Below, piece by piece: positions 5,172-32,723 of a stretch of 64,000 bases of DNA (within the stretch, counting starts at the first letter, position 1; every line of letters begins with the position of its first letter). Below the pieces are notes generated by a model. The model saw nothing but the letters and a program-made list of their open reading frames with translations. It was not told where the DNA came from and did not search any database. The translations under genes were made by a program, and so were the position numbers. Source of the stretch: a virus; IMG/VR virus record IMGVR_UViG_3300015371_000006, positions 1 through 64,000 of that record; one strand, 5' to 3'.

Positions 5172-7088
5172 TCACTGCAGCAGCCCCAGAGTGATCAGGT
5201 CGTCGCGCAGGCCGAGGACGTACTGCGCCAGCTGATTGAGGGTGAAGCCGCTCACCAGGGTGCTGGTCGCCGTCAGGCCCGAGCTGTTGGTCCGGGTGGT
5301 CGGGCGGGCTGCCGGGGTCGCGCCGAAGGCCCCGAAGGTGCTCCCGTTGTGGTCGAACGCGCCGCCGATGGTCAGCGCATCGTTGATGTCCACGCCGGAG
5401 GTGTTGATCTCCATCTTCTCGGAGCCGTTGGCGCTGAAGTGGATCGCGTTCTCGTTGGCCGACAGCTGGTAGAGGCCCGTGTTGAGGTCGCCCGTGAAGG
5501 CAATGCCGGGGTTGCCCACGTTGCCCTTGTCGGCCTGCAGCTGGCCCGCCGTCGAGGTGTTGCCGTCCTTGTCCACCAGCAGGTAGCTCGTGCTCCCCGC
5601 GTTGTTCTGCACGCGGAAGATTGCCGCCGTCGGCGTGGTGTCGGTCCCGCGCCGCACCGACAGCGCGACGGAGTCGGTCCCGACGTGGAAGGAGTTCGTG
5701 AATGTCCAGGTGTTCGCCGCCCCGAGCTGGCCGTAGCGCGCGTCAGATGCGGTGCGGTTCATCGCGTCCGAGCCCGCCGTCGCGTCGGCGAGGTTCGTGA
5801 TCTTGACGCCGTTCCAGGTGACGTTCGCGGTCGGTGCCGCCATCTGGTCGAGCCGCGAGGTCCGCACCTGGGTGTCGAAGTTGCTGATCGTGCTCGCGGT
5901 CTGCGTGCCGGTGTGGTTCGCGCGCGCCAGCGGGTCGGTCGCCAGCTTGCTCAGGGCGATGGCGGCGCTCGCGCTGATGTCGGCGTTCAGGATCGTGCCG
6001 TCGAGGATCTCGGTCGTGGTGACCGCCCCGGCGACGATCTGCAGGTTGGAGAAGGTGCCCGAGAGGTCGCCGCCCGCCGTCGAGCCCGAGCCGATGATCG
6101 AGCCGCCACCGATGGTCAGCGAGCCGCCGATGTCCACGCTGCCGGTGACGGTCAGGTTCTGGTCGATGATCACGTTGTCGGGCGTGCGCCAGGTGTCGGC
6201 GGCGTTGCGGTACCAGACGGTGTCGGCGTTGGCCGAGATGCCCGCCTGGGCCGACGGACCTTCGTCGCCGATGACGACCGCCGCCGAGGAGCCCACGCGC
6301 GCGGTGATGTCCACGGCCGACTGCAGGCTGTCGTCGGTCTTCAGCACGTTGGCGGCGCTGCGATACAGCGTCACGTCGCCGCCGATGGTGATCCCGACGT
6401 CCGCCGTCGTGTCGGAAAGGTTGATCGTGTCCTTGCCGCCGTTGGCGCTGATCACCAGGCCCTCGGTCGAGCTGATCGTGACTCCCTGAGTGGCGAGGAT
6501 GTCGCCGTCGCTGTCCACTCGCAGCGCGGCGGTTCCGGTGCTCTCCTCGACCCGGAAGAGGTCGGCGGTCTGCGAGGCCGCGCCGCGCGCGGTCAGCGCC
6601 ACCTGGCTTGCGTGGTCGGAGGTGGCGAGCAGGGGATAGGTGCTGTTGTGCCGCCAGCCGACGATGGGCCGGAAGGCGGTGATCGCCGACGACACGACGT
6701 CGACGTAGCCGATCTGGCGCTTGATCGCGGTGCCGGGGTCGCCGCCGGAAGCCACGATGGAGAGGTAGAAGTTGTAGTCGGTCGGTGAGTCGGGGTCGCC
6801 GACCACGCCCGTGAAGTCGTTGTCCGACCCGGTGACGTAGACGTCGCCGACGCCGTTGGTCAGGCCGCCCGGTAGCGCCGCCGTGGTCGCGGTCGTGCGG
6901 AAGCGGTAGCGCCCCTCGATGGCGACCGCCGCCTGGCTGTTGCCGCTGCCCGCCGTCGCCTGCAGGGTGGTCGAGTTCTGCACGGTGATCTTCAGGCTCG
7001 GGACCGACGCGCCCAGCACCTCTTGGATCGCGTCGAAGAAGCCCTCGTGGACCGGGTCCAGGTAGTCGAGTTCGATGTGCTGGGTCAT
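5172..7088 (-). CDS. Tail fibre protein
   Basis: 638 residues, rich in Gly, Thr, Ser, Asp and Ala, made of short beta modules. It holds two copies of an LYRxAANVLKTDD-type module (for example VTLYRSAANVLKTDD), which recurs six times in the 10385-13297 fibre, and a DTTPTAAIFRVQ module also shared with it. The C-terminal part reads like a fibre end with a final amphipathic helix (LNQLAQYVLGLRDDL). AGGAGG lies 5 nt before the ATG at 7088; upstream codons in frame are shadow of the next gene. Confidence 0.8.
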   Translation of the reverse strand: MTQHIELDYLDPVHEGFFDAIQEVLGASVPSLKITVQNSTTLQATAGSGNSQAAVAIEGRYRFRTTATTAALPGGLTNGVGDVYVTGSDNDFTGVVGDPDSPTDYNFYLSIVASGGDPGTAIKRQIGYVDVVSSAITAFRPIVGWRHNSTYPLLATSDHASQVALTARGAASQTADLFRVEESTGTAALRVDSDGDILATQGVTISSTEGLVISANGGKDTINLSDTTADVGITIGGDVTLYRSAANVLKTDDSLQSAVDITARVGSSAAVVIGDEGPSAQAGISANADTVWYRNAADTWRTPDNVIIDQNLTVTGSVDIGGSLTIGGGSIIGSGSTAGGDLSGTFSNLQIVAGAVTTTEILDGTILNADISASAAIALSKLATDPLARANHTGTQTASTISNFDTQVRTSRLDQMAAPTANVTWNGVKITNLADATAGSDAMNRTASDARYGQLGAANTWTFTNSFHVGTDSVALSVRRGTDTTPTAAIFRVQNNAGSTSYLLVDKDGNTSTAGQLQADKGNVGNPGIAFTGDLNTGLYQLSANENAIHFSANGSEKMEINTSGVDINDALTIGGAFDHNGSTFGAFGATPAARPTTRTNSSGLTATSTLVSGFTLNQLAQYVLGLRDDLITLGLLQ

Positions 7089-16049: not shown

Positions 16050-17002
16050 CAGTCACGCCCCGACTTCTTCGGGATCGTCAGCTTGCGATGCGAGCCCTGT
16101 CCGACCCAGCCCGCCAGCGGGGTGTCGCCGCCCCAGTGGTCGATCCCGTTGCGCGCGGCGATGATCTTCCACTCGCTCGCGGAGCCGTAGAACGCCTTCG
16201 CCAGCTTGGTCAGCGAGGCATTCTCGATCTTGTCCTGGTTGCGCTCGGGGATGCTCTCGCCGCCCTGCTCGACGGTGAACGCGTTGCCGTTGCCCATGAC
16301 GTGGACGATGGCCGGGAGCTTCTCGTGGCGGTCGCGGCCGTAGCGCTTGCGCTTGGTCATCGCGGTCCGGTACTCCGTGAAGCCGAGGTCGAAGTAGCGG
16401 GCGTCGGGCTCGCCGCCGCGCTCGCGCACCGAGTAGGTGCGGATGGTGACCGCCATGTCGATGTCGGGCTTCATCTCCAGCGCCCGGTTCCAGACCACGA
16501 GGTTCAGCGGCTCGCCCACGTCACAGAGCGTGTCGAGGTCACGGGCCACGTTGGCCGGGTGGGGGGCGTCGCCACCGGGCTCGGGCCAGTTGACGCCGGG
16601 GTTGACCACCTCGGTCAGCGGATGGGCGTCGCCTCGGGAGGTGCCGTCGATGGAGTAGCTGCCGCGCTGGTGCGTGCGCCCCCCGGCGATGGACGACCAG
16701 CTCGGGTTGTAGTCGACGACCAGGGAGCTGATCGACAGCGTGCGCAGCACCCGGCCGCCGTCGCGGGTGAACTGGCCCTTGGTCACGGTGTCGTAGTCGA
16801 TCCAGTTGTAGCTGTGGTCCCAGCCGAACTCGTCGAGTGGTGCGACCTGGAAGCGGTAGGGCTTCTTCAGCAGCTTTGGCGAGGTGATGCCGGGGATGCG
16901 GCTCAGGGTCACCGACAGGCCCGACTCCAGGTGGCGGTGATAGCTGCGGTCATCGACCATGCCCTGCGGCTCGTGTGTGCGCCCGCTGCCCTTGTCTGCC
17001 AT
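16049..17002 (-). CDS. LysM-domain baseplate protein (XkdP-like)
   Basis: 317 residues. The last 55 residues form a LysM-like module (ENASLTKLAKAFYGSASEWK, then LTIPKK), typical of XkdP/gp53-type proteins that bind cell wall or organise the hub. The N-terminal 250 residues are beta-rich with FGWDHSYNWIDYDTV. Gene order tape measure, LysM protein, hub is standard for this tail type. TGATG overlaps occur at both ends. Confidence 0.8.
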   Translation of the reverse strand: MADKGSGRTHEPQGMVDDRSYHRHLESGLSVTLSRIPGITSPKLLKKPYRFQVAPLDEFGWDHSYNWIDYDTVTKGQFTRDGGRVLRTLSISSLVVDYNPSWSSIAGGRTHQRGSYSIDGTSRGDAHPLTEVVNPGVNWPEPGGDAPHPANVARDLDTLCDVGEPLNLVVWNRALEMKPDIDMAVTIRTYSVRERGGEPDARYFDLGFTEYRTAMTKRKRYGRDRHEKLPAIVHVMGNGNAFTVEQGGESIPERNQDKIENASLTKLAKAFYGSASEWKIIAARNGIDHWGGDTPLAGWVGQGSHRKLTIPKKSGRD

Positions 17003-20000
17003 CAGACCACCCCGTCGTGGTTGCCGACGCCGTCCATCTCGCGGGCCAGCTCGCCGAAGGCGGCGTGGATCTCGCGCTTGAGCTGGTTCTTGATGTCGCC
17101 GTCGCGGTTGTTCGTGATGTGGATCTGGCCGATGCTGACGCCGCCCATGCCGCCGCCGCCCTTGGTCACGGTGACGGTCTCGCGGCCCTTCTCGCCGACG
17201 CCCAGCAGGGTCGGTCGGTTGGCGGTGAAGCTGCCGCCGTCGCCGAACCATCCGGCGAAGCCAGCGCGCCCACCCGTCGCCAGCCCCTTGCCCGCGCCTC
17301 CGAAGTGGATGTTGGAGCCGGTCAGATAGCGGGTGCCGTACCACGCGCCGATGCCCTGCGAGCTGTAGATCTCCTTGGCCGCTCGGGCGTTGATCAGCGG
17401 GTTGAGCATCGCCTGCACGCCACCCAGCCGCGCGATCAGCTCGTCGTTGAAGCCGTCGGTGATCGCCCACAGGCCGTAGCCGTGCGTGCCGCCGGGGTCG
17501 GTGCCCGCCGAGCCCGGCCGCATCCCCGACTCGCCCTTGGCGATCTGCGCGAAGGTGACGCCCGGCAGCCCCGCCCACTCGGCGATGGAGGCCACGGTGT
17601 TGAACGGCAGCGTCTCGCCGGAGAAGTCCGGGGCCATGTGCATCTGGTAGCTGTGGTTGTAGCGCTGGAACTGAGCCGGAACGCGCCCTGCCGACGCGCC
17701 TCGCACGGCCAGGCCGCCCGCGCCGAGCTTCTTGTTGACGGCGGCCTGCATCCCCGCTGCCATCGCCCTCGACCCTGCGTTCGACATGGCTCCCGGCGCG
17801 CCCCGCAGCTTGCTGCCCGGTGCTTTGACCCGCAGTGCCTTCGGGGTTGCCGCCCGGATCGCCCCGCCGATTCCAGCGATGGCGGCCCCACCCGCGCCGC
17901 CGGGGAAGAAGCCGATGTGGACGTGGTCGCTGTGGCCGCCGATGGAGCCCGGCACCCGCTGGCCCTCATCGATGTAGTAGGGCTCGGGGTCGTAGAAGAG
18001 TTCGTTGATCGAGCCGCTGAAGGCCGACTGCGCGCGTCGCCAGTAGGCGTCCATCAGCGTTGGCGAGCCGCTCACGTCGTAGGCGAGGCCCGAGTAGTGC
18101 AGCGACCCGCTCGCGTGGCCGCTCGACGGGACGCCGCCGCCGTAGGGCGGGGGCCCCTCGCCGACAGCCAGGCCCATGCTCTGCGCCAGCGCCCCGGCCG
18201 CCTGGATTCCCTGGGCCGCGCCCCGGCCGCGCCGCCCGCCTCGGGCGTAGCGCATGCCGTAGGCAGCGTTGCGCTCGCGGATGCGGCCGCCCGCCGCCGG
18301 GATTGCCGAGTGCGGCGTGTGCTCCCCGGCCACCATCCGCCCCAGCGCGCCCTTGGCCCCCAGCATCGTGTCCACGTCGGCTTCGGTGTGGCGGTTGACG
18401 TACAGCTCGCCCGGCGCGGCGTACTCGCCTCCACCCACGCCGACGGTGTCGCGGTGGCCCACGCCGGGGATGCGCCCGCCACCCGCGTATCCCGCGCGAC
18501 CTCCCCGCGCCTTGTTGCCGCCCCCGGCCGTCATGCCGCCCGGCGAGGTGTAGTGCGGGTCGAGGTTGTGGTGCGTGCCCATGATGGAGGCCGGGTCCGC
18601 GCCGCCTTGCTGCAGGTTCATGAACTTGCGCGCCTCGGAGGCCGTGTAGCCCATGCCCTGCAGCTGGTTGAGGACGTACTGCTCAATCTGCGTGCTCGCG
18701 CCCTTGACCTCTGACGCGGCGTCCCACATGCGCGAGCTGATCGCCTTGCCGATGTTCTTCCAGCTCGCCTCGCTGCCTCGGTAGATGCGGCCGTTGACGA
18801 TCTCGACGTTCTCGCCCATGCGCTTGAAGCGATCCTCGATGCCGCTGACCAGCTCGCGGTACTCGTCGCGGAGCTTCGGGTTCTTCTCGGCCGCCTTGCG
18901 CGCCATGTTCAGCGAGGTCTGCGCGACCGTGTCGGCGGCGTCGACGGGGAGCTTCTTCATCTCACCCGTGACGTCGTTGATCATCGCCGTGAACGCCTTG
19001 CCCGCGCCCTGTTCGTCGCGGCGAATGTCGAAGGCTCCGAAGATGTCCTTCCAGGCGTCCTGGGCCTTCTGGTCGGAGATCGCAGCCTGCATCTGCTTGA
19101 TGACCGCCAGGCGTTCCTTGGTTGCGATCAGGCCGCCCTTCAGCGCCTCGCGGTCGTCCTCGTCCGCCGCCGCCATCGCCTTGCGGTAGTTCGCCAGCAT
19201 GAGCGTCGCGCGGATCGACTCCTTGGCGAGCATCGCGTACTGCCCGCCGCCCTGCGGGATGCCCTCGCGCGATTGCGCCAGCAGCTCCTGGCCCTTCGTG
19301 TAGCCCTGCTGGTTCAGCTCCTCGTAGGTCGGCGGTGCCGGGATGATCCCGAGCGTCGCCGCCGAGACGCCACCGGCCGCCTTGCGCCGCCAGTCACCCT
19401 CGGTCTGCGAAGCCCCGCTGAGCGCCGACAGGCCGGTGATCGCCAGCCCGATGGGGCCGAGCAGCCGCGCCGCTGCGCCCCCGGCCATCGCCCCGCCCCT
19501 CAGCAGTCCGCCAGGCAGCGAGCGTGCCGCAGCCCCGACGCCGCCGGGCATGGACAGAGTGGCCCCGAGCCTCGCTGCGCCCATGCGCAGGCCCGGCAGC
19601 ACGCCTCCGGCGCGCCCCGCCACGGCCCCGCCGCCGAGCAGCAGCGGCGCTGCACCAGCTCCGGGCGACGCCTGCCCTGCGGCCGCCGCGCCCCGTCGGC
19701 CGCCGCCGAGCATCAGCGGCAGCGGTAGCGCCCCGCCGCGCATCTTGCTGAAGGTGAAGGCCGCCAGCATCGCGGTCAGCGCGTTGATGTTGCCGATGTT
19801 GATCGAGGCGATGAAGTGGACGATGTCGCCGATGGCGCGGCTGATCGGTCGCATCGCGTCGGCCACGTCCATGACCACCGGAGCGAGGTCGCCGAACAGC
19901 CGGGCGAGATCCTTCGCGCCCTCAACGGAGGTCCGCCAGAAGCGGTTCATCTCCTCGGGGTTCTGGCGCATCCAGCGAGTGCCCTCGCGGATCTTGTTGG

Positions 20001-21171
20001 TCATGTCCTCGACCAGGCCCTGCCCTTCGTCCGCGCCGGAGCCGAACAGCACCCGGACGAAGTTCCAGCTCGCCCGCAGCAGCCGCCACCACTCCGAGGT
20101 CTGTTGCACCAGGCCGTGAACGTCGTCCTGCAGCTGGCCCGCGTTCTCGGTCGCCTCCACCCAGCCGGAGGTGGTCTCGCTCATCCGCATGAACATCTTC
20201 TCCACGTCCGGCGCGACGGCGACGGCGATCCGCGCCAGGATCTGGCCCAGGTCGGCGGCGATGTCGGTCATGAACGGCAGCGTGCGCTCGGCGAGCGTCG
20301 TCATCCGGTTCCAGAAGCGGTCGAACTCGGGTGAGTCCAGGCGACCCAGCAGCTGGTCGACCGCGTCGTTGAACGCGCCCATGATCCGGTTCGCCGAGCC
20401 GCTGAAGAGGCCCAGGCGGCCCGCGATGAAGTCGAGCGCGGAGTTGGCCGCGCCGAACATGGCGCGCTGGCCTGGCTTGATCGCGTTCATCCAGTTCTCG
20501 CGCAGCGAGGTCGTGCGGCCCAGCAGGCCCATCGCCGGACCGACGGCCAGGCCCTGGCTGCGCATCTGTTGCTGCACGCGGTGCAGCTCCTTGGCGGCGT
20601 CCTTGGCCTCGCGGCTCGACGCGCCGTACTGTTGCTGGGCCTGGGTCAGCCCAGCGAAGCTCGTCTTCAGCTCGCCCAGGGAGCTGACCGTGGGCGCGAT
20701 CACCGAGACCAGTCCCGTCAGCGCCACGATCCCCGCGCCGCCGATGGCGGCACCCAGCGCTCCCACTCCCGCCGCCGCCGCGCCCAGCGAGCCCACGAGC
20801 GCGCCGAGCGCGCCTCCCAGGTCAATGATGTAGGGCAGCGCGACGGTGACGGCCGCGACCATGAAGCGCAGCCGTCCGGTAAACAGGTTCAGGGAGTTGG
20901 CCGAGCGGTCCGAGGAGTCGCCGACGTTCGTGATCTGGTCGGAGACACGGCTCATCGTCCGGTCGGTGTCGGTGCCCTGGCGGTCGAGGTCGCGCAGCTT
21001 GCGGTCGGTGTCCTCCATCTGGCGGATCTGCTTGTTCGTCCCGATGTCGTCGAGCGAATCGCCCGCCCCTCGGATCGCCAGGTCGGTGCGCTCGGCCTGC
21101 TCCTGCATGCGGCGCATCGGACCGGAGGCCCGGTCGATGATCTGGAAGATGCCGGTGACTGTTGCGGCCAC
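17002..21171 (-). CDS. Tape measure protein with two cell-wall domains
   Basis: 1389 residues. A coiled N-terminal part is followed by a long hydrophobic stretch (about 95-165) and another at about 460-580, as in tape measures. Two enzymatic domains follow. Residues about 990-1090 are M15-like (SLHYSGLAYDV and HSDHVHIGF, the His/Asp zinc ligands). Residues about 1195-1300 are transglycosylase-like (GESGMRPGS and GYGLWAIT, with the catalytic Glu near 1214). They would open peptidoglycan during DNA entry. The tape length predicts a tail of roughly 150-200 nm. Confidence 0.9.
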   Translation of the reverse strand: MAATVTGIFQIIDRASGPMRRMQEQAERTDLAIRGAGDSLDDIGTNKQIRQMEDTDRKLRDLDRQGTDTDRTMSRVSDQITNVGDSSDRSANSLNLFTGRLRFMVAAVTVALPYIIDLGGALGALVGSLGAAAAGVGALGAAIGGAGIVALTGLVSVIAPTVSSLGELKTSFAGLTQAQQQYGASSREAKDAAKELHRVQQQMRSQGLAVGPAMGLLGRTTSLRENWMNAIKPGQRAMFGAANSALDFIAGRLGLFSGSANRIMGAFNDAVDQLLGRLDSPEFDRFWNRMTTLAERTLPFMTDIAADLGQILARIAVAVAPDVEKMFMRMSETTSGWVEATENAGQLQDDVHGLVQQTSEWWRLLRASWNFVRVLFGSGADEGQGLVEDMTNKIREGTRWMRQNPEEMNRFWRTSVEGAKDLARLFGDLAPVVMDVADAMRPISRAIGDIVHFIASINIGNINALTAMLAAFTFSKMRGGALPLPLMLGGGRRGAAAAGQASPGAGAAPLLLGGGAVAGRAGGVLPGLRMGAARLGATLSMPGGVGAAARSLPGGLLRGGAMAGGAAARLLGPIGLAITGLSALSGASQTEGDWRRKAAGGVSAATLGIIPAPPTYEELNQQGYTKGQELLAQSREGIPQGGGQYAMLAKESIRATLMLANYRKAMAAADEDDREALKGGLIATKERLAVIKQMQAAISDQKAQDAWKDIFGAFDIRRDEQGAGKAFTAMINDVTGEMKKLPVDAADTVAQTSLNMARKAAEKNPKLRDEYRELVSGIEDRFKRMGENVEIVNGRIYRGSEASWKNIGKAISSRMWDAASEVKGASTQIEQYVLNQLQGMGYTASEARKFMNLQQGGADPASIMGTHHNLDPHYTSPGGMTAGGGNKARGGRAGYAGGGRIPGVGHRDTVGVGGGEYAAPGELYVNRHTEADVDTMLGAKGALGRMVAGEHTPHSAIPAAGGRIRERNAAYGMRYARGGRRGRGAAQGIQAAGALAQSMGLAVGEGPPPYGGGVPSSGHASGSLHYSGLAYDVSGSPTLMDAYWRRAQSAFSGSINELFYDPEPYYIDEGQRVPGSIGGHSDHVHIGFFPGGAGGAAIAGIGGAIRAATPKALRVKAPGSKLRGAPGAMSNAGSRAMAAGMQAAVNKKLGAGGLAVRGASAGRVPAQFQRYNHSYQMHMAPDFSGETLPFNTVASIAEWAGLPGVTFAQIAKGESGMRPGSAGTDPGGTHGYGLWAITDGFNDELIARLGGVQAMLNPLINARAAKEIYSSQGIGAWYGTRYLTGSNIHFGGAGKGLATGGRAGFAGWFGDGGSFTANRPTLLGVGEKGRETVTVTKGGGGMGGVSIGQIHITNNRDGDIKNQLKREIHAAFGELAREMDGVGNHDGVV

Positions 21172-21247: not shown

Positions 21248-22185
21248 TTAGCCTGTTCGCGGGTCAGAACGCCGCACGCGGCCTCCGGCTGCCTTCGCGT
21301 CCATCTCGCGTAGGCCGACCGAGAACCCGTAGAGCAGGGACCGCAGGCGGCGCGGGTGCGATGGCAGCGTCGGCTCGCCTGGTGTCGCCCTCGGGATCTC
21401 GACGTAGCCGCGCCATTGGCACAGCGCGCAGGGCTCCATGTTCCCTGAGCGTCGGGTCGCGTAGCACGCCGGGCACTCCTGGCGGTCGGTGAGCGGCCGG
21501 TACTCGCTGTCGAGAGAGTTGTAGAGCTGGAACGGGTCAGCACCATTTCTCCAGGCCATCGCAAGCAGGGCGGCCTCGCCTCCCGCCCTTACGAGTTTCC
21601 CGCCGCAGCGACCTGCTCGACTTCCTGCACGTCGTCATCGTCGAAGCCGCTCAGGCTCATGATGTGTCCCGCGATCTGCGCGATGAAGCCGGGCTTCTTC
21701 TGGAACCGGATGCGCACGCACTCGACGGGATCGAGCGGACCCGTCTTCGCCTCGTGCATCCGTCGCGCTGCCTCCTGCAGGTCGGGATCGACCGTTCCGG
21801 CGGCGACCACCTCCAGGTTGACGCGGTACTCGTCGACGCTGCCGGTGCGCCGGGCCGCGCGGCTCTGCGTCGCGCGCTGGCGGATCGCCCGCATCGTTTC
21901 CATCGAGACCGGGCAGATCGTCCAGGTGATCCACTTCGGCGTCTCGTCGGTGCCGAAGTTCAGCTTCAGCGGCTTGGTCTCGGGGGCTTCGTCCTCGTCG
22001 ATACCGACGAACCACTCCAGGGCGTCGGTCTGCGCCTGCGGCGTCAGCTTCTCAGCGTCCTCCGGCTTGACGGTGGCGGCGGCCTTGACTGCGGCCTTCT
22101 TGTCGCCGGGCTCGCCTACGGGATCGTCGGCGTTGCCAGCCGCTTCACGGAGCGGCTGCCCCGACAGGGTGCTCTCTGGTGCCAT
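21248..22185 (-). CDS. Tail assembly chaperone, -1 frameshift fusion product
   Basis: Predicted long chaperone (gpGT type). The short form's frame ends at 21589, but a G GGA AAC slippery heptamer at 21595-21601 permits a -1 shift into an open frame that runs without a stop to 21248. The extension adds LVRAGGEAALLA and then a region with two CxxC pairs (CPAC, CALC), a likely zinc ribbon. The position just before the tape measure is the classical place for this frameshift. The extension also has an internal ATG at 21559 that could give a separate 103-residue protein. Confidence 0.75.
21589..22185 (-). CDS. Tail assembly chaperone, short form
   Basis: 198 residues, the unshifted product. It resembles the XkdN-type chaperones that precede tape measures: FGTDETPKWITWTICPVSME, a short helical body (TMRAIRQRATQSRAARR) and an acidic C-terminus (SGFDDDDVQEVEQVAAA). 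These proteins coat the tape measure during tail assembly and are not in the virion. The first 40 residues are low complexity. Confidence 0.8.
   Translation of the reverse strand: MAPESTLSGQPLREAAGNADDPVGEPGDKKAAVKAAATVKPEDAEKLTPQAQTDALEWFVGIDEDEAPETKPLKLNFGTDETPKWITWTICPVSMETMRAIRQRATQSRAARRTGSVDEYRVNLEVVAAGTVDPDLQEAARRMHEAKTGPLDPVECVRIRFQKKPGFIAQIAGHIMSLSGFDDDDVQEVEQVAAAGNS
21595..21601 (-). promoter_or_regulatory. Programmed -1 frameshift site GGGAAAC
   Basis: The heptamer is read in frame as G GGA AAC, the exact X XXY YYZ form. Both tRNAs can re-pair after slipping (GGG AAA). It lies one sense codon before the zero-frame stop, and the -1 frame is open across the junction into the 21248 frame. 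Confidence 0.8.
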
Positions 22186-22423
22186 TGCTTGCCTCCTCGG
22201 CAGCTAGTGGGGGTGTCTGTCCGGGCATGCCGTCCGTCCTCGCGGGACGGTCCGTAGTGGCCCTTGTTGAACGTGGTGCGGGTACAGCTTCGGTGTCGTG
22301 GTCGAGCATGCACTCGACCTCCAGCCGCGCCATCGCGGCGTGTAGGTCGCGCTGCCCGTGACTCCGCTTCTCGTCGATGTGCGCCTTGAGGTGGAGCCAC
22401 GCGCGCTCGTAGTCCACGAGCAC
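22145..22423 (-). CDS. Small unknown protein
   Basis: 92 residues from a GTG at 22423, nine bases after the tail tube stop. The helical N-terminal half (YERAWLHLKAHIDEKRSHGQ) looks like a real folded segment, while the C-terminal half is low complexity and overlaps the chaperone start by 41 bases. It fills an otherwise empty gap between tube and chaperone genes. No family recognised. Confidence 0.55.
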   Translation of the reverse strand: MLVDYERAWLHLKAHIDEKRSHGQRDLHAAMARLEVECMLDHDTEAVPAPRSTRATTDRPARTDGMPGQTPPLAAEEASNGTREHPVGAAAP

Positions 22424-22432
22424 GGCTCAGCC

Positions 22433-22996
22433 TCAGCGACCCGACGGGTTCTGCGTCGTGTAGGGGTAGGTGATCGCCGGGAGCTTCGTGACCGGGTTGG
22501 TCTGCCCCGTGCGGACGAAGGCCTCGATGGGCTTCTCGTTCTCGTAGGTGAACGGGAACTCCAGGTCGCGGATGTCGTCGCCGATGTTGAAGCCGAGCGG
22601 CAGTCGCCACAGCAGGCAGCCGTCGAGCTGCCAGCGCTCGACGCCGAGGGCCTCGGGATCGTCGTAGCCGACCAGCAGGCTGAAGGGCCGCAGGACGCTG
22701 TTCTCGGTCCCGCGCATCGCTCGGCGCTCCTCCAGCGTCGTCGATACGAAGCGGTAGACCTCCAGCTCCCACTTGGAGTCGATCTTCTGGCAGCGGAAGG
22801 TGCCCTCTCGCGTGATCCGGCCGGGCTTGTAGCCCTGCTTGCCGGTGCCGACGATGGGGACTTCGATCCGGTTGACCTCGGCGGTGGCCGTGACCTCGGT
22901 GACCTCGGCGAGCAGGTTGCCTGCCAGGTCGCGGGCCTCTCCCCACATGCCGCTGATGCGGAAGAGCCCCTCGTTGTTGATCAGTGGGGAAGGCAT
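22433..22996 (-). CDS. Tail tube protein (XkdM-like)
   Basis: 187 residues. Directly follows the sheath gene, as tube genes do. Beta-rich, with NRIEVPIVGTGKQGYKPGRI and a later LGFNIGDDIRDLEFPFTYEN, a pattern of the XkdM/DUF2001 myophage tube proteins that stack as hexameric rings inside the sheath. Start at 22996. Confidence 0.82.
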   Translation of the reverse strand: MPSPLINNEGLFRISGMWGEARDLAGNLLAEVTEVTATAEVNRIEVPIVGTGKQGYKPGRITREGTFRCQKIDSKWELEVYRFVSTTLEERRAMRGTENSVLRPFSLLVGYDDPEALGVERWQLDGCLLWRLPLGFNIGDDIRDLEFPFTYENEKPIEAFVRTGQTNPVTKLPAITYPYTTQNPSGR

Positions 22997-23025: not shown

Positions 23026-24501
23026 CTAGCCGACGCTGACCGTGAAGTAGACCTGCTCCAGGGAGCGGGCGAACGACACGGTGATCGCGAGGGCGATGAA
23101 CTCGTCTTCGGGGGTTGGCGGTGGATCTTGGTCGATGCTGACCGACCAACCCGACTGGATCGAACCCGACGCCTCGCGCTCGGTGAGCCGGGACTTGACC
23201 TCGGCGATGAGCGCGGTGCGAGTGGCTTCGTTGATGGGCCGCTGGCCGATGATGTTCTCCTCGGCCCAGCGGGTCAGGTCTGCCCCGATGCCGTGCATCG
23301 TGGCGACGTACTTCGGCTGACGGTAGATCAGGTACGGCTTCGACGCATCCGCGTCGGCGTCGCTCGACGTCCAGGTGGTGAGCCCGGTCTTGACGTGGAC
23401 CGGCGCGGTCGCGTGCGAGTCGCGCGCCAGGACGACGACGCCCTCATCGAAGGCGGTCTCCAGGTCGCTGACCGTGGCCCCGACGACGATCTCGACTCCG
23501 GCGAGCCGCGCGTGCGTGAGGCTCTGATGCTCTCCGCGTGCCGCAAGGATGCCCGCGATCCGTGGCGCGAGCTGGGCGGTGCCGATGTCCAGCTCGGTGC
23601 GGTCGGCCCCCAGGTCGAGGTCGCGGATGGTGCCGACGCCCACGTTGATGATGTTCGGCGAGGCGAGCGTGCCCGAGCGGGTGGCCGCCGTGCTGACCGA
23701 CTCCCCGGCGGCCCCGCCGACGACGAGCGTGTGGTACTTGCCCGCGTCGTTGAGGTCATCGGTCCAGGCCGCGAAGGAGGCCAGGATGCCGGAGTCGGTG
23801 AGGTTGTACGGGGCGACGACACCGAAGGGCTCGACTTCGAACGCGGTCATCGCGGCGGTGTAGTCGGCGGCGAGCAGCGTGGTTCCGTCGTTTCCTCCGG
23901 TGAACGCCTGCGAGGCAACCGCCGTCAGCGCGGTGCCCGAGGTGATCGCGCCCGTGTAGTCGACCCAGTCACTGAACTCGCGGATGTCGGCGGCCAGCGT
24001 GGTGATGTCGGTCTGCACGTACTGGTAGCGCTCCAGCAGGACCGCGCCGTCGTAGATCAGCAGCTCGTCGCTCCCGGCCGTGGCCGAGTCCTGCACGGTG
24101 ACCCGAAGGTCGTCGCCGCGCGTGCCCTCGTAGCGCGCCTGCAGCGTGATCGCTGTCGTCGTGCCGTTGGACAGCGCCTTGGTCGACTTCGCCGCAGCGG
24201 AGCCGCCCATGCGGAAGCTGAGCACCTCGCCCGCCCCGCCCTGGCCCACGAGGCCGGAGCCTTCGAACGCCTGGCGGACGGCACGGTAGCCGTCGGTGTC
24301 GTCGGCGTTGCCGTAGATCGCCTGCCACTCGGCGAAGCTTCCCGTCCGCGAGACCTCTTCGAAGGGGCCCCAGTCGTGCGTGAAGGGGATCGCCACGATG
24401 GAGCCGGGGTTGACCGGCACCGGGACGACGGCCCTGGCCTCGAAGTTGAAGTACGCGCCCGGCAGCTTCGGGCGACTTGACTTGCTGAAGATGCCAGCCA
24501 T
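23026..24501 (-). CDS. Tail sheath protein
   Basis: 491 residues. Sheath signatures: an N-terminal LPGAYFNFEARAV and IPFTHDWGPFEEV, a middle VAPYNLTDSGILASFAAW segment, and a C-terminal domain with IGQRPINEATRTALIAEV and AITVSFARSLEQVYF. Contractile sheath proteins define myoviruses. Preceded by a small gene and the P1 late promoter; AGGAGG-like sequence lies just before the ATG (AAGGAGGCC). Confidence 0.92.
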   Translation of the reverse strand: MAGIFSKSSRPKLPGAYFNFEARAVVPVPVNPGSIVAIPFTHDWGPFEEVSRTGSFAEWQAIYGNADDTDGYRAVRQAFEGSGLVGQGGAGEVLSFRMGGSAAAKSTKALSNGTTTAITLQARYEGTRGDDLRVTVQDSATAGSDELLIYDGAVLLERYQYVQTDITTLAADIREFSDWVDYTGAITSGTALTAVASQAFTGGNDGTTLLAADYTAAMTAFEVEPFGVVAPYNLTDSGILASFAAWTDDLNDAGKYHTLVVGGAAGESVSTAATRSGTLASPNIINVGVGTIRDLDLGADRTELDIGTAQLAPRIAGILAARGEHQSLTHARLAGVEIVVGATVSDLETAFDEGVVVLARDSHATAPVHVKTGLTTWTSSDADADASKPYLIYRQPKYVATMHGIGADLTRWAEENIIGQRPINEATRTALIAEVKSRLTEREASGSIQSGWSVSIDQDPPPTPEDEFIALAITVSFARSLEQVYFTVSVG

Positions 24502-26840: not shown

Positions 26841-27191
26841 TTACCCCGGTTTCAACCGGCTCCAGACCTCCCTCCACTCACGGGCGTGCTCCAGGCGGTG
26901 GCAGTTCGCGCACAGCGTTTCCAGATTCTCCGGGCGGTTGTTTCGGCGGTTGCGATCACGGTGATGCAGTTCCAGCTGCACCTCGTCCACCGGCTCAAAC
27001 CCACATCGGTCGCAGGTGTCGGAGCGAAGTCTCGGCACAGGCGACCCGTTCCCAGGCCCGCAGCGCCAACGCGGGGTGCCGTCAGCGCCTCTCCGCTTCA
27101 GCCAAATGTGGACCCGCTCTCCGCAGCCCTCGCAATAGGCGGTCCTGCCCTCGGGGTCGACCTCGCGCAGCCGGTGCTTCCACTTCCCCAC
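26841..27191 (-). CDS. HNH endonuclease
   Basis: About 116 residues from a GTG at 27191 (start uncertain, no ribosome site). HNH core: LELHHRDRNRRNNRPENLE then LCANCH, with paired CxxC (CDRCG) completing a zinc site. A second CxxC (CEGCG) lies in the N-terminal part. It sits between the capsid module and neck genes, after a strong hairpin. It could be a free-standing homing endonuclease or a packaging-associated HNH protein; its separation from any terminase favours the former. Confidence 0.85.
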   Translation of the reverse strand: MGKWKHRLREVDPEGRTAYCEGCGERVHIWLKRRGADGTPRWRCGPGNGSPVPRLRSDTCDRCGFEPVDEVQLELHHRDRNRRNNRPENLETLCANCHRLEHAREWREVWSRLKPG

Positions 27192-27222
27192 GCGACCAAC
27201 ACACCAGGCCCCTCGGACGGCG

Positions 27223-27250
27223 AAGGGCTGGGTTTTTACACCCAGCCCTT
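27223..27250 (-). terminator. Hairpin between capsid module and HNH gene
   Basis: Perfect 11-bp stem (AAGGGCTGGGT / ACCCAGCCCTT) with a short A/T-rich loop. It follows the stop of the 27277 gene by about 26 bases and could reduce read-through from capsid genes into the neck genes. Confidence 0.7.
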
Positions 27251-27276
27251 CTGACCGTTCAGACGGAGGACTCCGT

Positions 27277-27687
27277 CTAGGACTTCTTGCTCGACGCCTT
27301 CTTCTTCGGGGCCTCGGCCTCCGGGTCAGCGGCCTTGGCCGCCTCCTTCTCGGCGGTCGATGCCGCCTTGCCGACGCTGTCCGCGAGGATCGCGCCCTTC
27401 TCGACGCGGCCCCCGTTGTCGTGGTCGACGTAGCTGTAGACGACGGTGTCGCCACGGACGGTGTAGCCGAGGAGGTCATCCCCGTCCACTCCGGCCGACT
27501 TGGCGACGTCCGCCTCCTTCAGCTCCTCGGTCGCCTCGGCGTCGACCTGCTTGAGCTGGGCCGCCCCGAGCAGCCCAGCGAAGCGGGTCCGGTTCGCCTG
27601 GATCAGATCCTCGGCGCGGCCGGTTCCCTGGCCGAACTTGTCGGCCAGCTCGTTGAGTGCGTTCTGAGCGTCGTTTCCTGCGGGCAT
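27277..27687 (-). CDS. Capsid-associated protein of unknown role
   Basis: 136 residues. Helical N-terminal half (AQNALNELADKFGQGTG), a small beta segment (LLGYTVRGDTVVYSYVD) and an Ala/Lys-rich C-terminal tail ending KKKASSKKS. Directly downstream of the capsid gene. A TAGGCT sequence lies 34 bases upstream of the ATG, and AGGAGG precedes it. It may be a cement or head-neck protein. Confidence 0.65.
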   Translation of the reverse strand: MPAGNDAQNALNELADKFGQGTGRAEDLIQANRTRFAGLLGAAQLKQVDAEATEELKEADVAKSAGVDGDDLLGYTVRGDTVVYSYVDHDNGGRVEKGAILADSVGKAASTAEKEAAKAADPEAEAPKKKASSKKS

Positions 27688-31003: not shown

Positions 31004-31227
31004 CAGATGCCCTTCAGCCCGCTGCGGCGAAGCTGCGCGCGGAGGTTCTTGACCGAACGGTGGTCGCTCGGGCTGATCGGCGCGACGACCATGTGCTTGC
31101 CGTCGGGGCTCATCATCTTGATGTGGCCGTTGCCCTTGCGCATCCTCCACTTCGCCTTCCACGCGATCTTGATCAGCTTGTCGACCTCCCGGCAGGCTGC
31201 CTTCGGCCGCTTGGTCTGCGCCGTCAT
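31003..31227 (-). CDS. HicA-like small protein
   Basis: 74 residues. KLIKIAWKAKWRMRKGNGHI, then SPDGKHMVVAPISP and LRAQLRRSGLKG follow the HicA mRNA-interferase fold (a dsRBD-like sheet with a conserved Gly-x-Gly-His). The catalytic His is plausible at HIKMM. No HicB antitoxin gene is adjacent, so it may instead be a stand-alone RNA-binding protein. ATGA overlap with the ligase. Confidence 0.55.
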   Translation of the reverse strand: MTAQTKRPKAACREVDKLIKIAWKAKWRMRKGNGHIKMMSPDGKHMVVAPISPSDHRSVKNLRAQLRRSGLKGI

Positions 31228-32162
31228 GACAGCAGCTCCAGCTTGCAGTCGTCGGCGGGCTTGTCGGGGCGGCGCTTCTTGAACTGGGGGTGGCGGAAGC
31301 CGCCGGTCGGCATCTGCCCCATGTGCGCGACCTCGACGACGGTGCCGATCCAGGCGTCCGGGTTCTTGGTCATCGCCTCGCGGGTCTTCATGTCCATCCC
31401 GCTGCAGCGCCCGGCCTCGACCAGGTTGCCGTCGGCGTCGTGCGCGCCGAAGATGATCGCGCCGACCATCCCAGCGAAGCCGTTCTCGCCCGGCTTGAAG
31501 CCCATGACGATCACGTCGATGGTGTCGGCGGGCTTGATCTTCGTCCAGCCTGCTCCGCGCTTGCCGCTCGCGTAGCGCGCGCGGGTGTCCTTGATGACGA
31601 GCCCTTCGAAGCCCTGCGCGAGGACCGCGTTGAGGCTCGCCTCGGTCGGCTTGACCTGCGGGATCAGGATCGTCCGCTTGAGGTCGGTCTGCGCGAAGAG
31701 GCTTTCGAGCAGCGCCCTGCGCTTCGCGTAGGGCAGCCGCCTCGCGTCGATCCCGTCGAGCGCGATCAGGTCGAAGACCATCAGGCTGATCTTGTCGCGC
31801 GTCGCCTTCGGCTTCGCGCTGCCGCCGCCGAAGGCGCTCTGCGCGATGCCCCACTCGTAGGCGATCTTGCCGTCCTGCATCGTCATGCCGACCGCCTCGC
31901 AGTCGAGCCATGTTCCTGCGGGGAGCCGCTCGGCCAGCTCGGCCTCGTGCTCGGGCAGGCAGCCGGTGTATGCCTTGGCGGTCCGGCTGTAGAGGTGGAC
32001 GCCGTCGTCGGCGATGTGCACGAGCATCCGCCAGCCGTCTAGTTTCGGCTCGGCGGTGAAGTGCGGGGCTGCGTATGGCGCAAGCCCTTGAACCTTCGGG
32101 GCCTCGGCGTTCTGCGCCAGCTTCTCGGCGCTTGTCGGGGCGGTGGTGGTCAGCGTGGTCAT
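31224..32162 (-). CDS. ATP-dependent DNA ligase (LigD ligase-domain type)
   Basis: 312 residues. Adenylation domain with motif I EPKLDGWR (lysine at residue 40), motif III region LDCEAVG, MVFDLIALDG, motif IV EGLVIKD and motif V GWTKIKP. An OB-fold follows and ends with FRHPQFKKRRPDKP, the RxDK motif VI of LigD-type ligases. It seals nicks and breaks in DNA. The ATG at 32162 has AAGGAGG in the CCGACC leader. The gene is divergent from the 32292 operon, shares the TGCTAC palindrome with Ku and is the natural partner of the Ku homologue 1.3 kb away. Confidence 0.92.
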   Translation of the reverse strand: MTTLTTTAPTSAEKLAQNAEAPKVQGLAPYAAPHFTAEPKLDGWRMLVHIADDGVHLYSRTAKAYTGCLPEHEAELAERLPAGTWLDCEAVGMTMQDGKIAYEWGIAQSAFGGGSAKPKATRDKISLMVFDLIALDGIDARRLPYAKRRALLESLFAQTDLKRTILIPQVKPTEASLNAVLAQGFEGLVIKDTRARYASGKRGAGWTKIKPADTIDVIVMGFKPGENGFAGMVGAIIFGAHDADGNLVEAGRCSGMDMKTREAMTKNPDAWIGTVVEVAHMGQMPTGGFRHPQFKKRRPDKPADDCKLELLS

Positions 32163-32181
32163 CGGGAACCTCCTTGGTCGG

Positions 32182-32198
32182 TGCTTCAGATCATAGCA
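32182..32198 (-). promoter_or_regulatory. Operator O1 and -10 of ligase
   Basis: Minus strand TGCTATGATCTGAAGCA, a degenerate copy of the TGCTAC-N5-GTAGCA palindrome. It contains an extended -10 (TGCTATGAT). It lies 20 nt above the ATG. Confidence 0.6.
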
Positions 32199-32204
32199 CA
32201 CCCT

Positions 32205-32221
32205 AGCTACGATCTGTAGCG
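32205..32221. promoter_or_regulatory. Operator O2 between divergent promoters
   Basis: Plus strand AGCTACGATCTGTAGCG; the half-sites GCTAC and GTAGC are perfect with the same 5-nt centre. Its centre is 23 bp from O1. Between O2 and O3 is a short CCCCG/CGGGG hairpin near 32236-32247. Confidence 0.6.
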
Positions 32222-32249
32222 CGCTCCCGGTCCGCCCCGTTGCGGGGTG

Positions 32250-32266
32250 TGCTATCATGTGTAGCA
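32250..32266 (+). promoter_or_regulatory. Operator O3 and -10 of 32292 operon
   Basis: TGCTATCATGTGTAGCA, a near-palindrome containing an extended -10 (TGCTATCAT). It is followed by the shared leader TTCCCGACCAGGAGG and the ATG at 32292. Confidence 0.65.
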
Positions 32267-32291
32267 GTTGTTCCCGACCAGGAGGTTCCCG

Positions 32292-32723
32292 ATGAGCCCT
32301 CGCTCTACCTTCACCGTCCGCTTCTCCGACGCCGCGTATCAGCTCGTCTCCGAGGAGTGCCGTCAGGCCCGCGCCGTCGCGCGGGAGTTCCGCTTCGACC
32401 CGCCCCGGTCGCTGACCAACGCGATCCGGCAGGCCCGCGCGTACCGCGAGGCCGGGGTCGAGGTGCTCTACGTCTACGAGCAGGCGTGGCAGCGCTGCGG
32501 GTCCATCCAGGGCCTCGGCTCGATGGAGGAGCAGGTCGGGCCGACCCGCTACTTCGACCTCGACCGCTCCGAGTTGTCGTCCGACGAGCGCCACCTGCGC
32601 GACTACCACTCCCGCCGGGCGTGGCTGAAGACGACGGCGGTCCGTTGGGGCGACGGCTCGACCCGGCGCGGCAAGCTGCTCGCGCTGCAGGTCGAGTACC
32701 GGACGCTCGGGTTGGAGGTCTGA
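32292..32723 (+). CDS. Unknown protein, first gene of plus-strand operon
   Basis: 143 residues, not recognised. Starts STFTVRFSDAAYQLVSEE and contains LTNAIRQARAYREAGVEV (helix) and WLKTTAVRWGDGS. AGGAGG 7 nt before the ATG inside the shared CCGACC leader. It is expressed from the O3 promoter, opposite the ligase, in the same island as Ku. A DNA-repair accessory is possible but unproven. Confidence 0.7.
   Translation: MSPRSTFTVRFSDAAYQLVSEECRQARAVAREFRFDPPRSLTNAIRQARAYREAGVEVLYVYEQAWQRCGSIQGLGSMEEQVGPTRYFDLDRSELSSDERHLRDYHSRRAWLKTTAVRWGDGSTRRGKLLALQVEYRTLGLEV

Follow-up and report, generated by a model that had tools for sequence, protein, structure and literature searches.

The tail module and its relatives

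The window, a stretch of 64,000 nucleotides that makes up positions 1 to 64,000 of the IMG/VR virus record IMGVR_UViG_3300015371_000006 (111,596 bp), carries a tail module in which a chaperone gene is placed between the genes of the tail tube and the tape measure (Table 1). A sequence-only reading had taken this gene, starting at 22185, for a tail chaperone just upstream of the tape measure, and both the profile searches and the gene order bore this out. Its product matches PF08890 (XkdN-like tail assembly chaperone) with an E value of 8.4e-11 and 42.4 bits, the curated cut-off being 27, and phrog_389 (XkdN-like) with an E value of 1.4e-12 in the PHROG search. The tape measure gene was recognized by its PHROG tape measure matches (1533, E 2.7e-4; 4070, E 0.01), and the tail must be contractile since a sheath gene is present. 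These data indicate that the zero-frame ORF encodes an XkdN-like tail assembly chaperone of a contractile-tailed phage.

Table 1. Features of the chaperone locus and its neighbors in the window
Feature	Position	Strand	Basis
Tape measure gene, 1389 aa, directly downstream of the chaperone	17002..21171	minus	PHROG matches, length, position
T domain encoded in the −1 frame; 117 codons counted from the slipped GGG, followed by a stop	21248..21601	minus	Conservation across 15 related lineages
Putative zinc-ribbon insert, E-CPAC-(11)-CALC-QWRGYVEIP	21392..21478	minus	Four cysteines invariant in four lineages
Conserved stretch of 11 codons in the −1 frame, VRAGGEAALLA, preceding ATG 21559, the first possible start	21560..21592	minus	Comparison with L014
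TAA stop of the zero frame, with a single sense codon (TCG) between it and the heptamer	21589..21591	minus	Read directly
Slippery heptamer G GGA AAC, in phase	21595..21601	minus	Read directly; relatives have heptamers at the equivalent place
Zero-frame tail assembly chaperone, gpG-like, XkdN-like family, 198 aa	21589..22185	minus	PF08890 and phrog_389
Tail tube	22433..22996	minus	PF09393, E 5e-14; phrog_365, E 1.3e-15
Tail sheath	23026..24501	minus	phrog_279, E 1.9e-69

The small ORF that separates tube from chaperone (22145-22423, minus strand) codes for 92 aa and overlaps the chaperone start by 41 nt; it had no match in Pfam or PHROG, and relatives have it in the equivalent position with the pattern DYERAWLxLKxxIxxKxSHGQRDLL...LEVEC. 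Farther away, the head gene region contains an HNH-endonuclease-like ORF (HHRDRNRRNNRPENLETLCANCHRLEH) at 26841-27479 on the minus strand, which overlaps another ORF (27687-27277), and an ORF resembling ATP-dependent DNA ligase adjoins the structural genes at 31224-32609 (minus strand).

Relatives were collected from IMG/VR, yielding 19 related contigs that represent 15 distinct lineages. The chaperone as a query retrieved a single one (L002), the tail tube retrieved L003-L011 and then L012-L029, several of which are identical contigs, and the extension of the cysteine-carrying clade described below retrieved L035. The tail tube was thus the useful bait, the extension of the window alone giving no match among viral contigs. 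No prophage relative was found when genome contigs were scanned with the tail sheath and with the tail tube, and the GenBank phages contained no relative of the window chaperone and only chance-level matches to its extension.

Slip site and coding in the −1 frame

On the minus strand, the chaperone ORF ends with GCG GCG GGA AAC TCG TAA, in which G GGA AAC is phased as X XXY YYZ. The window contains three copies of GGGAAAC, all of them on this strand. In the −1 frame, the open stretch begins 46 nt before the zero-frame stop ends and runs to a stop ending at 21248; it encodes both CPAC and CALC, and the predicted chaperone-extension fusion is about 312 aa long. Direct reading therefore agrees with what the sequence-only reading had claimed, namely, a correctly phased heptamer with a single sense codon between it and the stop and a −1 frame that continues across the junction into two CxxC pairs.

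All 19 related contigs show a chaperone stop followed by a conserved −1 extension starting with the KL[IV]xxGGEA type. An in-phase XXXYYYZ heptamer is present near that stop in 12 of the 15 loci, window included, versus 2 in 4,954 codons of background (sheath, tube, tape measure, and other structural genes), a comparison that carries no formal probability, the loci being related by descent. The heptamer sequence varies between lineages as its location stays constant: G GGA AAC in the window, L007, L008, L014-L016, L024, and L035, G GGA AAG in L025-L027, G GGA AAA in L028 and L029, A AAA AAC in L002 and L003, and A AAG GGC in L009 and L010. The L035 junction, G GGA AAC TAG, comes in addition to the 12 counted loci. 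Loss of the heptamer in close relatives, which had been named beforehand as evidence against slippage, was not seen, for L014-L016 have GGGAAAC and L002/L003 have AAAAAAC.

In three lineages, the −1 extension is retained and a canonical XXXYYYZ heptamer is absent. L005 has G GGG GAA at the junction (6457-6475), and in L006 (6357-6363) and L011 (6413-6419) the codons GGT and GGC, respectively, directly precede TGA. It is possible that in the latter two a single glycine tRNA slips from GGY to GGG while the stop codon waits; the missing heptamer may also be a sequencing error in these contigs.

The junction was also inspected for stimulators. GGAGGT-like runs are present upstream of the slip site in several relatives, and an internal Shine-Dalgarno stimulator was rejected since anti-SD pairing was no stronger than in synonymous recodings (mean of −6.8 versus −6.6 kcal/mol, z −0.4), that is, nothing beyond codon expectation. 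Downstream, no common or consistent stem-loop was found, with z values from −2.1 to +1.6 against shuffles.

Where coding in the −1 frame begins was examined by comparing the window with L014. Over the 11 codons at 21560..21592, 10 amino acids are identical and 8 third positions are changed. The first start codon of this frame is ATG 21559, where the ORF list begins its second frame, and no ATG, GTG, or TTG was found upstream of it in this frame. These data indicate that conserved coding starts at the slip site, not at ATG 21559. For the whole extension, dN/dS is 0.26 between the window and L014 and ranges from 0.10 to 0.54 in other divergent pairs having a defined value, which argues that the −1 frame is under purifying selection.

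If the extension were instead a separate small gene, translated from ATG 21559 or by termination-reinitiation without any fusion, the in-frame ATG of the window and the one that L002/L003 carry two bases past the zero-frame stop could serve as its start. Yet the ATG is not conserved, the extension of L028/L029 (one lineage) contains no ATG, GTG, or TTG over its whole length, the 11 conserved codons precede the first ATG of the window, and the heptamers would be left unexplained, so we regard a separate gene as very unlikely. It is also conceivable that the heptamer is a chance match and that the −1 frame is open merely through GC bias, many long spurious ORFs being found on both strands of this GC-rich DNA. 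This explanation is refuted by the comparative data, that is, by the recurrence of heptamers at this spot over the background, by purifying selection on the −1 frame, and by homology to known T domains, and the chance that it holds is negligible.

This homology was established with nine GenBank phage records of the XkdN type (L044 and L047-L054, including phiCD27, phiC2, phi OH2, AQ113, and Lietuvens), in every one of which A AAA AAC lies at the chaperone stop or beside it and is followed by a −1 domain starting with KKL. By itself, the −1 extension gave no convincing match in Pfam, PHROGs, or the PDB, and the new T domain did not match that of a single Lachnospiraceae phage; significance was reached only with nine sequences. 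Because the profile of the nine known T domains aligned with that of their new counterparts at an E value of 4e-7 and a probability of 93%, the window extension is identified, at the level of profiles, as the T domain of the XkdN family.

A four-cysteine insert in the extension

In the T-domain alignment, both CxxC pairs belong to an insert that follows the N-terminal helical part (LVRAGGEA...DPFQLYNSLD) and precedes the last helix (PRRLRSLLYGF...). The insert is carried only by the window and three other lineages (L002, L003, and L014-L016), which form one clade with support of 98/97 in a tree built without the insert. No more distant relative has it, nor do the nine XkdN-type GenBank records, and the earlier remark that a zinc ribbon in this extension is unusual thus held up among the phages checked. 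Cysteines C43, C46, C58, and C61 of the extension, arranged as two CxxC knuckles in a CPxC/CxxC pattern, are invariant in the four lineages.

The profile libraries gave no confident zinc family for the insert, the best profile match being PF13248 for one member only (E 0.028). AlphaFold2 modeled the extension as helices followed by a small bubble that contains strands and surrounds the cysteines, and then a long helix, with middling confidence (pLDDT 75.5, pTM 0.52), and a search of the PDB by fold returned no match for the extension. Judging from the spacing and conservation of the cysteines, the insert is probably a zinc-binding ribbon. One may argue that the frameshift is real and that the two CxxC pairs arose by coincidence or form a redox pair rather than a metal site, given that the insert has neither a confident name in the profile libraries nor a structural match and that CxxC..CxxC also occurs in other frames of the window, some of them spurious. 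Coincidence or a redox role is nevertheless unlikely in our view, since the four cysteines and their CPxC/CxxC arrangement are invariant across four lineages whose extensions are only 39-57% identical to that of the window.

Among open-licence papers pairing the tail assembly chaperone with zinc or CxxC, none was found that describes a zinc module in this protein; in two of them, the zinc or CxxC belongs to other genes. The novelty at this locus is the putative zinc-ribbon insert within the T domain, undescribed in the open-licence papers searched.

Proposed mechanism and comparison with known systems

Very probably, the locus employs programmed −1 ribosomal frameshifting in an XkdN-like chaperone gene of a contractile phage, yielding a T domain with a putative zinc-ribbon insert. 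We infer that slippage occurs at G GGA AAC: most ribosomes would stop at TAA and release the 198-aa chaperone, and a minority would slip back one base to produce the fusion, the C terminus of which would be the standard T domain of the family with the putative four-cysteine ribbon inserted. By analogy with lambda gpG/gpGT, the short form would bind the tape measure in many copies, and the few fused molecules would recruit tube subunits through the T domain (PMC5009743). On this view, the insert would act as a module for structure or binding that is found solely in the fused form. Our guess is that it touches the tail tube; the tubes of the insert-carrying clade are the most similar to that of the window (70-78% identity versus 64% or less in others), which is consistent with such a contact and does not show it.

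More tentatively, and with the odds against the full scenario, a contractile-phage clade may have placed a zinc-binding module in the frameshift-only part of its chaperone, such that metal binding is confined to the rare fused form and the module assists in recruiting or selecting subunits of the tube or the tape measure. In addition, the three lineages that lost the canonical heptamer yet keep the extension would hint that slippage can be simpler, in two cases on the glycine codon next to the stop.

These findings confirm a known frameshift rule for a group of phages whose chaperone is unmatched in the GenBank phage collection searched. The T domains with and without the putative metal module offer a natural experiment on T-domain function and on the contacts for tube recruitment. 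Lacking its own start codon, the T domain would be missed by automatic annotation or given a wrong start.

As for known systems, the lambda heptamer is G GGA AAG, the same as in relatives L025-L027. Lambda differs in its non-contractile tail and its chaperone family, and we know of no zinc insert in its gpG/gpGT. The logic is common to both: the −1 slip is placed close to where the chaperone gene ends, with the tape measure gene following (PMC5009743). The g-t frameshift of the haloarchaeal virus HCTV-1, a member of a different virus group likened here by its heptamer alone, uses G GGA AAC (PMC5009743), identical to that of the window.

The XkdN-like (PF08890) phages phiCD27, phiC2, phi OH2, and AQ113 have the zero-frame family, the gene order, and the slip site at the stop in common with the window, and in both the −1 T domain starts with KL[IV] and has an Arg/Tyr-rich final helix followed by Glu. 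They differ in that the slip site of these phages is A AAA AAC and their −1 domain, some 55-70 residues long, lacks CxxC pairs, whereas the window has G GGA AAC, a longer loop, and the putative zinc-ribbon insert. Given that A AAA AAC and a homologous T domain are found in the nine XkdN-type phages, the frameshift appears to be of the well-known gpG/gpGT type, with a mechanism that is already known. Two of their T domains start much like that of the window, that of the Sporosarcina phage Lietuvens with KKLIKAGGEA (L051, 1345-1518) and that of a record labelled MRSA107 with KKLIRAGGEA (L054, 1297-1497), and these could be stepping stones toward the wider XkdN family.
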